A stretch of 64,000 nucleotides of DNA, from NCBI RefSeq assembly GCF_000507245.1, contig NC_023035.1:819001-883000 (forward strand), given 5' to 3'. The notes beneath the pieces are model-generated. The model saw only the letters and a program-made list of their open reading frames with translations, ran no database searches and was not told the DNA's origin. Origin of the DNA: Salinispira pacifica. Its GTDB lineage: Bacteria > Spirochaetota > Spirochaetia > DSM-27196 > Salinispiraceae. Positions within the stretch are counted from its first letter, which is position 1, and each line of letters starts with the position of its first letter. The translations under genes were made by a program, and so were the position numbers. Of this stretch, positions 10,969 to 16,221 are shown in pieces.

Positions 10969-11496
10969 ATGAATTGGAGCAAAGAACGCAGACAACTGTT
11001 CAACGATGTGTATGAGGAAACATTCCCCATACTCATCCGCATCACCTACCGTATCACCAATGATATGGAGGCTGCAGAAGAACTCTGTCATGACGCCTAC
11101 ATCAAATTATACGAACGGCTCGACCAGCTTCCCGATCAGGCTCAGTCCAAATACTGGCTGATCAGGGTTGCCAAGAATATGGCCTTGAATTACGCCAAAC
11201 GGAAGGGCCGCGAGCGGAAAGCGTATGAACGGGTGCTGTATGAGCCCAAACGCAAAACAGAATCCGGCGAGGATTTGGTGTTGAAGCAGGAGGCCTATGA
11301 GGCCGTTCAGGATGCCCTGGGCAAGATTCCTGAAAAATTCCGTGCGGTTCTGGTTCTAAAGGAATATGCAGGCTTGAGTTATCGAGAAATTGCCAAAATT
11401 CTGGACATTACCGAAGCAAACGTGAAGGTCCGGGCATTCCGGGCCCGGGAAAAGATGGCGGCTCTCTTGGATGAGGAGGGTATACATGTCCCTTAA
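10969..11496 (+). CDS. RNA polymerase sigma factor, ECF-like sigma-70 family
   Basis: A 175-residue two-domain sigma factor. Region 2 (residues about 12-80) contains the NDMEAAEELCHDAYIKLYE helix and the WLIRVAKNMALNYAKRK segment that contacts the -10 element. Region 4 (about 112-170) contains the LVLKEYAGLSYREIAKILDI helix-turn-helix. There is no region 1 or 3, as expected for ECF factors. It is followed by a membrane protein whose gene overlaps its 3' end by 11 bases, the usual place for a cognate anti-sigma factor. The regulon is unknown. Confidence 0.92.
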   Translation: MNWSKERRQLFNDVYEETFPILIRITYRITNDMEAAEELCHDAYIKLYERLDQLPDQAQSKYWLIRVAKNMALNYAKRKGRERKAYERVLYEPKRKTESGEDLVLKQEAYEAVQDALGKIPEKFRAVLVLKEYAGLSYREIAKILDITEANVKVRAFRAREKMAALLDEEGIHVP

Positions 11497-12424
11497 TGAC
11501 GATCTGTTAATGGAAATTCTTGACGATGAGATCCCCGAAGAGTACCGGGACTCAATTGTGGAACAGGTGGCTGAAACACCCCGCCTGAATACCAGACTCA
11601 AACGCTACCGGAAGGTTCAGCAGCTCATGCATCTCCGGGATCATGAACTTGAGAATGAGATAGAACTCAGCCGTGACAGACTGAAAAAACGGATTAACCG
11701 GAACCTGGATGCAGCTGAACAAGGAAGCCGCAGACCTCACATGCTGCTGGATGAAGGCCCAAGGATCAAGCATAATGATGCCCTGCCTCACTCCGGCGCG
11801 CCTTCCCGGGAAGCTGCCGGAGAGATCCGGAATACCCGCCGGCAGAATATTTTTCATCGCTGGATCCGCATACCCGCTCCCGCCGCTGCAGCTGCCCTGG
11901 TCATTTTTGCAGCCGTAGTTGCGTTCAACTTCCTGTCTCCCGGAGGAAATTCCGAAACACAAATGGCCTCTGCACAGGATGATCAGTTTTTCCATATGAA
12001 TCTGGATAACTATTCGGAATTTTCCGAAGTGGATCCCAATCTGGTAAATCTCCTTTCGGTGGGCAGTCAGCAGAAGGAAACCGTTCCCCCGGGACCCAGG
12101 GCGTCAAACGGCGGCAGTACGGAAGCGGGCGACCAGGACAGTCAACAGGGCATAAACCTTCAGATAAATGTACGGGATGTGGAACAGCTTCTCAGACTTC
12201 TTGAAGGCACCCGAAACCTCAACGGAAACATCAGTGAGCTCACCATTCAGCTGCCGGAAATTTCCGAACTGGATCTGCTGGGTGAATCCCGGCTGATGCG
12301 GGCAGATCCTTCCAGAACCCGGCAGTCTGCCGATTCCCCAGCTGCCGCCGATGCCGGGGAAGAAAACGAAGGTACGGATGACCCCCGGGAATCGATCCCT
12401 GACGCCCAAGGGGAGGCTCAATGA
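11486..12424 (+). CDS. Putative anti-sigma factor-like membrane protein
   Basis: About 312 residues, starting at ATG 11486 with a strong GGAGGG site inside the end of the sigma gene. The N-terminal ~125 residues are cytoplasmic and charged. They begin with DDLLMEILDDEIPEEY and a basic KRYRKVQQLMHL helix, like the sigma-binding part of anti-sigma factors, but I see no HxxxCxxC zinc motif. One membrane segment (residues about 128-150, IPAPAAAAALVIFAAVVAF) leads to a periplasmic Ser/Gly/Gln-rich region. Anti-sigma function is inferred from position and topology only. Confidence 0.65.
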   Translation: MSLNDDLLMEILDDEIPEEYRDSIVEQVAETPRLNTRLKRYRKVQQLMHLRDHELENEIELSRDRLKKRINRNLDAAEQGSRRPHMLLDEGPRIKHNDALPHSGAPSREAAGEIRNTRRQNIFHRWIRIPAPAAAAALVIFAAVVAFNFLSPGGNSETQMASAQDDQFFHMNLDNYSEFSEVDPNLVNLLSVGSQQKETVPPGPRASNGGSTEAGDQDSQQGINLQINVRDVEQLLRLLEGTRNLNGNISELTIQLPEISELDLLGESRLMRADPSRTRQSADSPAAADAGEENEGTDDPRESIPDAQGEAQ

Positions 12425-13056
12425 TTACAGCGCTGCTTCGCTCCCGGATGTTATTTATTTCCATAGTTCTCATGGCTGCCTCAGTCGCACAGATGACGGC
12501 CCAGCAGGGTGACGCAACAGCGGAAAGCAGCGGGAACGGGAGCACCGGCAGTGCCCAGGTTCAAACCCGGCCTTCGGATAGTAACGGCAGCAATGCTCTT
12601 CCCAGGGATCCCAACGAGATCCTCCGGGAACTGGAAAACGATGTTCTCAGAGTGTACATCCAGGCCAGAATTCTGGGCAGCGGTGAGGATTCCTCCGGGG
12701 TGATCTGGAATATGGAAATGGATGAGCTCACGGTACCCGGAAGGGGAGTGAAGGTGCGCCTGAATGGACAGAACCTTGTGGTTGAAGTGGAGTTCACCCC
12801 CTATCGCCAGGAAAATGAGACCATCATGCTGGTTGCCCAGGGACAAACCTGGGTGCAGAACAGCAGTGAAGATAAACTTCGCTATCAGACAAGTTTGAAA
12901 AGCATTCCTGTGGATACCGGCGAACCTGTGGTGTTTTATCCTCTGGGGGTGGATACCTCCAACGGAAGTTCGGTTAATCTTGAACTTGAAATAACTGTGA
13001 GCAACTATCGTCTTTCCGGGGGTCAGACCGAAGACTCCGGTGAATCTGCAGACTGA
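12421..13056 (+). CDS. Exported protein of unknown function
   Basis: A 211-residue protein whose ATG overlaps the upstream stop (ATGA), so translation is probably coupled. A signal peptide (MLFISIVLMAASVAQMTAQ) is followed by a low-complexity Ser/Gly/Gln linker, then a beta-rich domain from about residue 65. That domain alternates strands such as VKVRLNGQNLVVEVEFTPY and YQTSLKSIPVDTGEPVVFYPLG. I recognise no family. Its place between the anti-sigma-like gene and the pseudo-transglutaminase suggests all belong to one envelope-stress-type operon. Confidence 0.7.
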   Translation: MITALLRSRMLFISIVLMAASVAQMTAQQGDATAESSGNGSTGSAQVQTRPSDSNGSNALPRDPNEILRELENDVLRVYIQARILGSGEDSSGVIWNMEMDELTVPGRGVKVRLNGQNLVVEVEFTPYRQENETIMLVAQGQTWVQNSSEDKLRYQTSLKSIPVDTGEPVVFYPLGVDTSNGSSVNLELEITVSNYRLSGGQTEDSGESAD

Positions 13057-13067
13057 CGGAACATGCA

Positions 13068-14876
13068 ATGAAATCCTCCCGAAAAAAGCTTCTTGTATTC
13101 AGCGGCATCGCCGCAGTGTTAATACTCTTCGCCGTAAATCTCTTTTTCTTCCTCCGGAAACCCCATCTGGTGTCCATCGATCCCTATCAGGCGCGATCAG
13201 GTGATATTGTCGTTCTTTCCGGGCGCTTTCTGGGACGTCCGGATCCGGGGAATTCCCTGAATGTGGGAGGCCAAAGGATTACATCATCCTACATTCTGGA
13301 GTGGGAACGGGACCGAATCAGTTTCCGAATTCCCGAGGGGCTCTCTTCAGGTGATGTAATCGTCGAGCTTCCCCAGGGCAGAAGCAATCCTCTTCTGTTC
13401 ACCAACGTCGACAGCATTCCCGTCCCTGCCGATTCCCGGGACGAGCCGGAGCTCCAGGCGGCTCTCGCCGAAGAAGCTGATGAAAGCCTGTGGCTGGTGT
13501 CTGTACGGGGGATCGATTTCGGAGAACTTCGCTCAGCCCGCTGGTTCTGGGATGATACGCCATTACCCCGTTCCCGGATAGTTTTTATCAGGGAAGGGGA
13601 AGAGGAGAGCAGGTTTCCGTCAGCCGGACAGAACGCCCGTACGGAAGCTCATGTGGTGGGAATTCATTTGCCTGTGTATGAATACTTTCCATCATTCCTT
13701 CCGGAAGATGAAGACGGGGAGGGGGTGAGCACCCAGGAGATTCGCCGCTCGTTAATGGAAATTCAGAACGAAGTGTCCCGGCGTCTCAGCTTTGCCCTGG
13801 ACTCCCGGTTCTCCTCGGCCCGGGAAGGGCAGCCGGGGGGGGAGACACAGCCGGATAATTCTGTAAGCCTTTTTCAGATCAGAAAGGGAAACAGCTTGTG
13901 GGAAAACCTTTTGTATTCCCGAAGGGAAAATCTTCCCGATAATTCTTCCGGGGATGATATTCCCCTGTATTCCCTGAGTCTTTCCATAGATATCCCGCAG
14001 CCGACAGCGAACGAATCACCTTCGGGACATCAGCCGGGGGCTCCAGAGTATATTCTCACCCTTCCGCTTCCGGAAATAACCAATCCCGGGTATGAGCTCC
14101 GCGGAAATTTCCGGGGTTACCTCCAGGCGCTGCCTTCTCCGGAACAGATTCCTGCATTCAGACTTCTTCCCGGTTCAATGAGTGAACGCCGGAATGAGGG
14201 CAATCTGACTCTTCAGGTGTATGGCCGCCCTCTGCAGCCTGCAGCCCCCCCGCCGGGACTTTTATACGGTTCGGATGATTTCTCCCAGGCCGGGGTGTTC
14301 CGCCCGGTGTATGAAGACTACCTGGCAGTTTCAGGCCAGCCGCTGCTGGATCCTGATCTGAGGCAGGAGCTGCAGGCCTCGATTGCCGCCCGGCAGGGGG
14401 CTCTGCCCCTGGCCCGCGGCATGTATGAGTGGATTTCCCTCCAGGATATATCAGGCATAGAAGGTATCGGGATATTCATCGATGAACTGCGAAGGTTGGG
14501 AATCCCCGCCCGGGAGCGTTGGGGCTATGTACGGAGGCCTGAGGCAAGCGGCGAAATTGACCCCGGTGAAGGCTTCAACTCAAGTACACAGCGGCCGGGA
14601 CGGGATGCAGCTGCAGTCGGGCCGGGCAGGGCCTCTGCTTCTGATGCACCGGTTCGGTCAGGAGGTTTTTCGGTAACTTCCTGGGCGGAGTTCTTCCTTC
14701 CCCGCTGGGGATGGGTTCCGGTGTACCGGGAATCCCTGGAGAATGACGCCCCCTTTGCCTCCACAGCTGCCGAGTATCTTCCGGTTCCCCTGGATCAGCC
14801 CTTTCCCCGTCTGGAGACCATCAACCCGGGGAAGGCTCCTGCACGGCTGGCAACCAGACTCATTGACCGCCATTGA
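13068..14876 (+). CDS. Membrane-anchored IPT/TIG protein with degenerate transglutaminase-like domain
   Basis: A 602-residue protein with an N-terminal membrane anchor (residues about 8-29). A short IPT/TIG-like Ig domain follows (about 34-105, [20 protein letters not shown]). A long middle region is unrecognised. Near the C-terminus, about residues 465-555, the pattern [12 protein letters not shown]...WGYV...[16 protein letters not shown] matches transglutaminase-like (TGc) domains. The positions that should carry Cys, His and Asp hold Gly (15 residues before GIPAR), Ser (SWAEFF instead of HAWVEVY) and Tyr (GWVPVY instead of GWVPVD). It probably binds rather than cleaves or cross-links. It lies 11 bases after the preceding gene. 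Confidence 0.7.
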
Positions 14877-14934: not shown

Positions 14935-16221
14935 TTGTCCCGAATTGAAGCTTTTGATCCCGAATTATACGAAGTTATTCAGAAAGAAACCCGGCGTCAG
15001 CTTGAAAAAATCGAACTGATAGCCAGTGAGAATTTCACTTCCCAGGCCGTACTGGAAGCCGCAGGCAGCGTATTAACCGATAAATATGCCGAAGGATATC
15101 CGGGGAAACGCTATTACGGCGGGTGTGAATATGTTGATATGGCGGAGGACCTTGCCCGGGACCGGGTGAAAAAACTCTACAATGCCGATCACGCAAACGT
15201 GCAGCCCCATTCGGGAAGCAGCGCAAACATGGCCGTGTACATGACCCTCCTGAAGCCCGGAGACACCATTCTGGGGATGGATCTGGCCCACGGCGGGCAC
15301 CTTACCCACGGTGCCAGCGTGAACTTCTCCGGTCAGCTCTATAATATCATCAGTTACGGCGTATCCAAAGAAAGCGAACAGCTGGATTACGACGAGATCC
15401 GGAAACTTGCCGAAACCCATAAACCGAAACTGATCATCGCCGGGGCATCCGCATATCCCCGGATAATCGATTTCAAGCGCTTCCGGGAAATTGCCGATTC
15501 AGTCGGTGCATTCTTTGTAACAGATATGGCTCATATAGCGGGACTGGTCGCTGCAGGGCTGCATCCCACACCTCTGCCCCATGCCCACTTCACCACAACC
15601 ACCACCCACAAAACCCTCCGGGGACCCCGTGGCGGACTGATCCTCATCGGAAAGGACGGGGAAAACAGCCTGGGAGTTGTTGCGCCCAAGAGCGGCAGAA
15701 CCAAAAACTGGAGCGAACTGGTGGACTCGGCGGTAATGCCGGGAATTCAGGGCGGGCCGCTTATGCACGTCATTGCAGCCAAGGCCGTGGCATTCAAGGA
15801 AGCCCTGGAACCGGAATTCAAAACCTATCAGCAGCAGATACTGGACAATGCCAAGGCACTGGCATCCCACTTCGCCGAGAACGGTATCCGGGTGGTATCC
15901 GGAGGCACGGAAAATCATCTCATGCTTTTGGATCTCACCGACCTGGGAATCAGCGGTAAAGAGGGAGAGAAAATGCTGGATGCGGCAAATATCACCGTGA
16001 ATAAAAATGGGATCCCCTTTGATACCCGAAGTCCCCTGGTAACCAGCGGTATCCGGGTGGGTACTCCTGCGGTAACCAGCCGGGGCATGAAGGAAGATGA
16101 TGTACGGCAGGTGGGAGACTTCATCATGGAAGTGCTCAAGAGCAAGGGCGATGAGAAGGTGATTTCCAAAGTTGCCGGGGAAGTGAAAACGTTCACCTCC
16201 AAATTTCCCAGAAGAAGCTGA
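14935..16221 (+). CDS. glyA: Serine hydroxymethyltransferase
   Basis: About 428 residues, the usual SHMT length. It interconverts serine and glycine with tetrahydrofolate, using PLP, in the cytoplasm. Signatures: [11 protein letters not shown], the [18 protein letters not shown] substrate loop, and the PLP lysine in [14 protein letters not shown] at about residue 226. I chose TTG 14935, preceded by GGAGGT at 14925-14930, because upstream codons run into the previous gene and no ATG is near the conserved N-terminus. A bidirectional terminator follows. Confidence 0.95.

Follow-up and report, generated by a model that had tools for sequence, protein, structure and literature searches.

The gene at positions 13068–14876 of the window, the 64,000-nucleotide stretch of Salinispira pacifica DNA analyzed here, encodes a protein with a transglutaminase-like (TGc) domain that lacks all three catalytic residues. 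We put the chances at about even that this is the species' copy of a class-wide spirochaete pseudo-transglutaminase, in which the cleft has been kept as a binding site without turnover. Dead transglutaminases are already known as a kind; the pattern here is unusual in that the nucleophile has been lost and drifts while the two helper residues are almost fixed. Most of the class, including Treponema (judging by record titles) and probably Borrelia, appears to carry an envelope gene of this kind within a conserved sigma operon. The family points to an uncharacterised envelope component, of which the window copy is the least typical member seen, and it may offer a concrete case of pseudoenzyme evolution in which binding without turnover was followed by a possible return of catalysis.

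The preliminary description of this DNA, made from the letters alone, had placed the reading frame exactly. The product matches the class-wide family profile, built without the window, at E 2e-37, and the following features were located:

13068–14876, forward strand: TIG / pseudo-transglutaminase gene, an intact ORF of 602 aa from the ATG at 13068 to the stop at 14876
13089–13145, forward strand: N-terminal membrane anchor, aa 8–26 (hydropathy maximum 2.6 over 19 residues; helix 2–28 in the model)
13161–13403, forward strand: IPT/TIG domain, aa 32–112 (Pfam 17.5 bits against a cut-off of 20.9; model pLDDT mostly >90)
14454–14456, forward strand: G463, the catalytic Cys position (by alignment and numbering; N-terminus of core helix 463–476 in the model)
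14499–14513, forward strand: GIPAR motif of the TGc frame, aa 478–482
14532–14666, forward strand: low-confidence loop, about aa 489–533, nearly 40 residues longer than in relatives
14676–14678, forward strand: T537, the catalytic His position of HxW (two residues before Trp; S538 is the x)
14724–14726, forward strand: Y553, the catalytic Asp position of GWVPVD (placed via GWVPV-Y, four after Trp)

The protein therefore has a single IPT/TIG domain behind its membrane anchor and, at the C-terminus, an eroded TGc domain whose frame spans aa 463–553. A short basic stretch precedes the anchor, and the part that follows it would sit outside the inner membrane. The Pfam score of the IPT/TIG domain lies under the curated cut-off; by structure the domain has the IPT/TIG fold, its best PDB match being 8co1 (Z 13.7, rmsd 1.7, 86 aligned residues), followed by cyclodextrin glycosyltransferases. 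The GIPAR/WVPV frame of a TGc domain, which had been noted previously, is present but weak: Pfam Transglut_core aligns with aa 472–552 at E 5.3e-4, its 20.7 bits falling short of the cut-off (23), and the genome search gave 23.2 bits. With the TGc profile of the family, 15.5 bits were obtained for the C-terminal part, compared with at most 2.5 for 500 shuffles. On these sequence comparisons the frame appears genuine, though eroded. The long loop sits between the two TGc motif blocks and has a G+C of 0.71 at codon position 2; outside it the codon-position G+C of the gene is coding-like. The preliminary description had mentioned neither the anchor and TIG domain nor the family context.

No Cys-His-Asp triad is found in the window protein, which has G463/T537/Y553 at these positions. 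The earlier assignments of Gly for Cys and Tyr for Asp were correct; that of Ser for His was off by one, since the His of HxW corresponds to T537. In the profile alignment the Y553 column shows a gap for the window protein, and this assignment rests on motif position. The window protein is the sole row without Asp among 126 aligned, and Cys and His are absent from it too. A frameshift or sequencing error masking the triad was considered and is thought unlikely: no TGc motif is present across the insert in either of the other forward frames, the flanking motifs share one frame, and three separate sites differ.

In a search with the window protein, 52 of 61 genomes (its own included) gave a match, almost wholly via the N-terminal TIG region. 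A profile built from 28 relatives together with the window protein found matches at E 1e-5 in 300 of 392 genomes from the phylum. Of the matches listed, those that are near-full-length fall within the window's class and the weaker ones elsewhere are partial. A named collection yielded 398 relatives, 80 of which were examined; 79 of these carry spirochaete names, many of them Treponema, and one record is labeled "bacterium." All 51 members scanned match both Transglut_core (E up to 0.01; 73.8 bits for the first) and TIG. NCBIfam returned weak matches only, the first member scoring 24 bits with LIC10067_lipo, whose cut-off is 200, and no literature on a TIG/pseudo-transglutaminase family was found among open-access papers.

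At the Cys position, the 118 in-class orthologs possess Ala (48), Ser (47), Pro (7), Val (4), Thr (3), Cys (2) or Glu (2), with Gly, Asp, Ile, Asn and Lys occurring once each. His is kept in 112 of them, the other six having Tyr, and Asp in all 118. Conservation of the substituted positions in relatives, proposed earlier as a check, is thus divided: Cys is replaced in 116/118, whereas His and Asp are kept. The replacement of all three residues describes the window protein and not the family, where the norm is loss of Cys alone. When 178 domain columns are ranked by entropy, Asp is tied for first place, His is sixth and Cys 66th, and 50/118 orthologs have no Cys anywhere in the TGc domain. The 80 named loci (of 398) give a similar picture, with Cys in 0/80, His in 79/80 and Asp in 80/80; the search pattern biases the Asp count. 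Codons at the Cys position are mostly GCN, TCN and CCN, which are mutually one step apart. The six orthologs with Tyr for His (L015, L126, L054, L135, L056 and L138) all retain Asp and do not all fall together on the tree.

Out-of-class relatives served as a positive control: Cys, His and Asp align at these columns in 6/6 rows. Likewise, TGc paralogs from the same genomes have Cys in 14/14 alignable cases (16 fetched, 14 aligned; three further matches not fetched) versus 0/15 orthologs. Regulation of an active TGc paralog was considered as a general role and is unlikely, five of 16 genomes (G001, G007, G052, G203 and G256) having no other TGc match at E 1e-6. Two in-class members, L110 (genome G423) and L137 (G320), both of family f24, do have Cys among Ala- or Ser-bearing relatives, and these two may be active.

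Phylogenetic analysis was carried out with FastTree on 118 rows (111 in-class, six outside and the window protein) and with an IQ-TREE mixture model on 92 rows, from which most long branches were excluded. Each tree gave two changes between Cys and not-Cys; on the FastTree topology these are most simply placed at the boundary that separates the class from the outside rows, and at L110. The latter stands beside the Ala-bearing L094 with a support of 97 (FastTree) and 94 (IQ-TREE). L137, a fragment left out of both trees, has Cys; in the relatives closest to it, L086, L088 and L090 (65% identity), the position holds Ala. On the two trees the position undergoes 35–36 changes between A, S, P, C and other residues (35 with IQ-TREE), and S/A swaps are found between such near relatives as L026/L027 and L009/L028. 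Change counts alone do not separate gain from loss, and the direction is given by the outside rows. Read most simply, the sequences indicate that Cys was lost once, early, that the position then drifted between small residues and that Cys returned twice; L110 and L137 are possibly independent returns of catalysis. The window protein has an end branch of 2.36, compared with a median of 0.5.

The window protein was modeled using AlphaFold2 without templates. The mean pLDDT is 59.8, and the middle (aa 120–420) is poorly predicted, so the architecture there is uncertain. The core helix begins at residue 463, and T537 and Y553 lie in the two expected strands (534–544 and 548–553), with block pLDDT values of 87–92 for the helix and 64–80 for the strands. 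Anchor, TIG domain and TGc helices are well placed in the model, the TGc strands moderately so. In the PDB comparison, of the kind suggested in the preliminary description, the ranges among the matches listed cover the TIG domain only and are neutral on the TGc fold. Neither of the refuting outcomes named beforehand, a fold of another kind or relocated catalytic residues, appeared.

The model of L148, a typical Ser-bearing member, has a pLDDT of 91.3 and reveals an anchor, two TIG domains, a β domain and a TGc domain with a papain-like core, in which a helix is followed by the His and Asp strands. Ser422 heads this core helix, where papain-like enzymes carry Cys according to the portion consulted of PMC10318531. 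For the β and TGc part the best PDB match is 3isr (Z 20.2 over 256 residues), a putative cysteine protease from Cytophaga; further matches are TglA (9crn, Z 15.0), transglutaminase 2 (Z 11.9) and TgpA (6g4h, Z 11.5). The C-terminal half of the family therefore has its fold in common with Transglut_core-type proteins such as 3isr, TglA and TgpA, together with the motifs GIPAR, HxWxE and GWVPxD. It differs from them in lacking the nucleophile Cys in all but two of the in-class orthologs and in carrying TIG domains and a membrane anchor as well; His and Asp are likewise absent from the window copy.

The window gene is the fourth in an operon encoding an ECF sigma factor, an anti-sigma factor, a small exported protein and the TGc protein, and is followed by a gene that we take to be glyA:

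10969–11496, forward strand: ECF sigma factor (Sigma70_r2 and r4; family profile 3.6e-82)
11489–12424, forward strand: putative anti-sigma factor (family profile 2.6e-32; membrane-spanning by eye)
12421–13056, forward strand: third gene, small exported protein (family profile 3.8e-54; 4-base overlap with the anti-sigma gene)
14935–16221, forward strand: presumed glyA (probable TTG start behind GGAGG)

These E-values, like that of the TGc gene, were obtained with family profiles built excluding the window, and they confirm that a TGc domain without catalytic residues lies inside a sigma/anti-sigma operon, as had been proposed. The genes of the operon overlap or nearly adjoin. The anti-sigma ORF was listed from 11471, and the start at 11489 is preceded by GAGGAGG; zf-HC2 scored above cut-off in one of four anti-sigma relatives scanned and not in the window anti-sigma. 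No Pfam family above cut-off was found for the third-gene product in four relatives and the window protein. For the presumed glyA, the listed ATG at 14743 falls within the TGc gene, and the true start is probably the TTG at 14935.

Linkage of the TGc gene with the ECF sigma and anti-sigma genes extends beyond the window. The order sigma – anti-sigma – third gene – TGc is found in 61 of the 62 named loci having at least 3 kb upstream, L198 being without the third gene. Most of 20 fetched neighborhoods contain murB, cysS, sigma, anti-sigma, third gene and TGc, and often glyA, a gene for a cyclic-nucleotide-binding-like protein and valS downstream, the names of these neighbors (murB, cysS, glyA, the cyclic-nucleotide-binding-like protein and valS) being our assumption from their sequences. 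The Cys-bearing L110 occupies the ordinary slot (locus L231), where the third gene was not detected.

The co-occurrence is not obligatory. The Borrelia-like loci L228 and L229 read murB-cysS-TGc-glyA, with sigma, anti-sigma and third gene not detected, and sigma was not found in 4/4 genomes of the Borrelia-like family f26. Conversely, in G115 and two f16 genomes (family f16 including, e.g., G053 and G332; loci L236 and L237) the sigma and anti-sigma genes adjoin cysS; these 3.5-kb loci contain no third gene, and the genomes as a whole no TIG/TGc gene. The parts of the operon are, on this gene content, separable, and because the gene occurs without the pair in one lineage and the pair without the gene in others, an obligatory sigma sensor is unlikely.

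A strict link to flagella was considered and discarded, as G410 and G419 are without FliG yet keep the gene. FliG was absent from the 14 f16 genomes tested, and in 12 of these the family profile found no match. The remaining two matched in the TGc part only, with no TIG, as did seven further f16 genomes whose matches were weak. In genus g27 of family f19 single weak FliG matches only were found (1e-17 to 1e-19). Penicillin-binding protein (PBP) transpeptidase matches number 0–1 in 28 f16 genomes versus 3–6 in 28 gene-bearing genomes, one of which in this comparison, G292, carries a partial gene only. This is a hint of a peptidoglycan link; f16 is one clade and perhaps represents one event. G115 and G051 have three PBP matches each yet no TIG/TGc gene. 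Together, the carriers without FliG and the PBP-bearing non-carriers argue against any simple link to motility or peptidoglycan.

We infer for the family a periplasmic location, ligand binding and a role in the cell envelope. The protein would be anchored in the inner membrane, with its TIG and pseudo-transglutaminase domains in the periplasm, and made from the sigma/anti-sigma operon. The sequences show that nearly all members examined are without the nucleophile, most simply through an early loss followed by drift between small residues, and that His and Asp remain among the best-conserved positions. The family would perform neither transglutaminase nor cysteine-peptidase chemistry; its papain-like cleft and His-Asp pair would hold a peptide-like ligand, such as an envelope protein or a peptidoglycan stem peptide. 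Laboratory substrate-trap mutants, in which Cys is changed to Ala or Ser, provide an analogue of ligand holding without turnover. The family would serve the envelope, expressed with the sigma/anti-sigma pair without being obliged to signal to it. In the window copy the pocket residues are gone; if it is working, this protein would most likely act as a scaffold or protein–protein surface via its anchor, TIG domain and remaining fold. The binding or sensory module envisaged in the preliminary description hence fits the family better than the window protein: for the family a binding role appears plausible, for this member, with its pocket residues gone, less so, and the gene content speaks against obligatory sensing for sigma. 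His and Asp might also be kept for folding, and not for binding.

A bolder form of this reading, which we hold tentatively and rather doubt, is that the class possesses an ancient natural substrate trap: the nucleophile was removed once, early in its history, the His-Asp pair holds an envelope ligand and the protein, encoded beside an ECF sigma operon, reports on or organises the cell wall. On this view the site remained close enough to catalysis for Cys to return, as it has in L110 and L137 at least. That the protein is a dedicated sensor, with sigma released when a ligand in the pseudo-TGc cleft alters contact with the anti-sigma factor or the third-gene product, would account for the operon order in nearly all named loci and the close packing of the genes in the window; we judge it unlikely, given the Borrelia-like loci and genomes with the gene and no detected sigma, and the genomes that keep the sigma pair without a TIG/TGc gene. 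Far less probable is a changed enzyme, a serine hydrolase or acyltransferase in which Ser or another residue serves with His-Asp as a new nucleophile. Ser in 47/118 orthologs, an invariant Asp and a nearly invariant His are what such an enzyme would have, but most of the remaining members carry Ala, Pro, Val or others at the position, near relatives swap Ser and Ala, and the 50 domains devoid of Cys argue against it as well.

On this one genome, either a scaffold or decay may describe the window copy. It is possible, although we lean against it, that the window protein is decaying, a relaxed long-branch copy nearing loss whose TGc part has no present function. The complete loss of the triad, with Asp missing in this row alone, the length of its end branch, and the long low-confidence loop and low-confidence middle all point that way; against this, the 602-aa ORF is intact with coding-like codon-position G+C outside the loop, the TIG domain is well kept, and the three upstream genes of the operon match their families. 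Inactive proteins of this kind have precedents. In the portion consulted of PMC10318531, EPB42, FBXO21, CC2D2A, menin and bacterial DUF1175 are described as inactive TGc/papain-like proteins with scaffold or binding roles, and DUF1175 is said to bind peptidoglycan. The latter is a bacterial precedent; as far as that portion goes, all five are separate families and none is an exported TIG/TGc protein, and the word searched for found no mention of spirochaetes there.

Borrelia burgdorferi bb0600 is probably an ortholog of the family. We take it to lie between cysS and glyA, and the Borrelia-like loci L228 and L229 hold the gene in the matching slot, murB – cysS – [gene] – glyA. Compared with the typical family the Borrelia-like C-terminal domain is strongly diverged, the Cys position being Glu, Glu and Lys in L144–L146, with His and Asp kept. 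In the parts of PMC2845121 consulted, bb0600 is listed only with a cyclodextrin transglycosylase domain, in keeping with the kinship of the TIG domain with cyclodextrin glycosyltransferases; no bb0600 mutant is reported in those parts. Finally, TDE0581, annotated as "Transglutaminase," is among the lowered genes in the portion consulted of PMC7586716.
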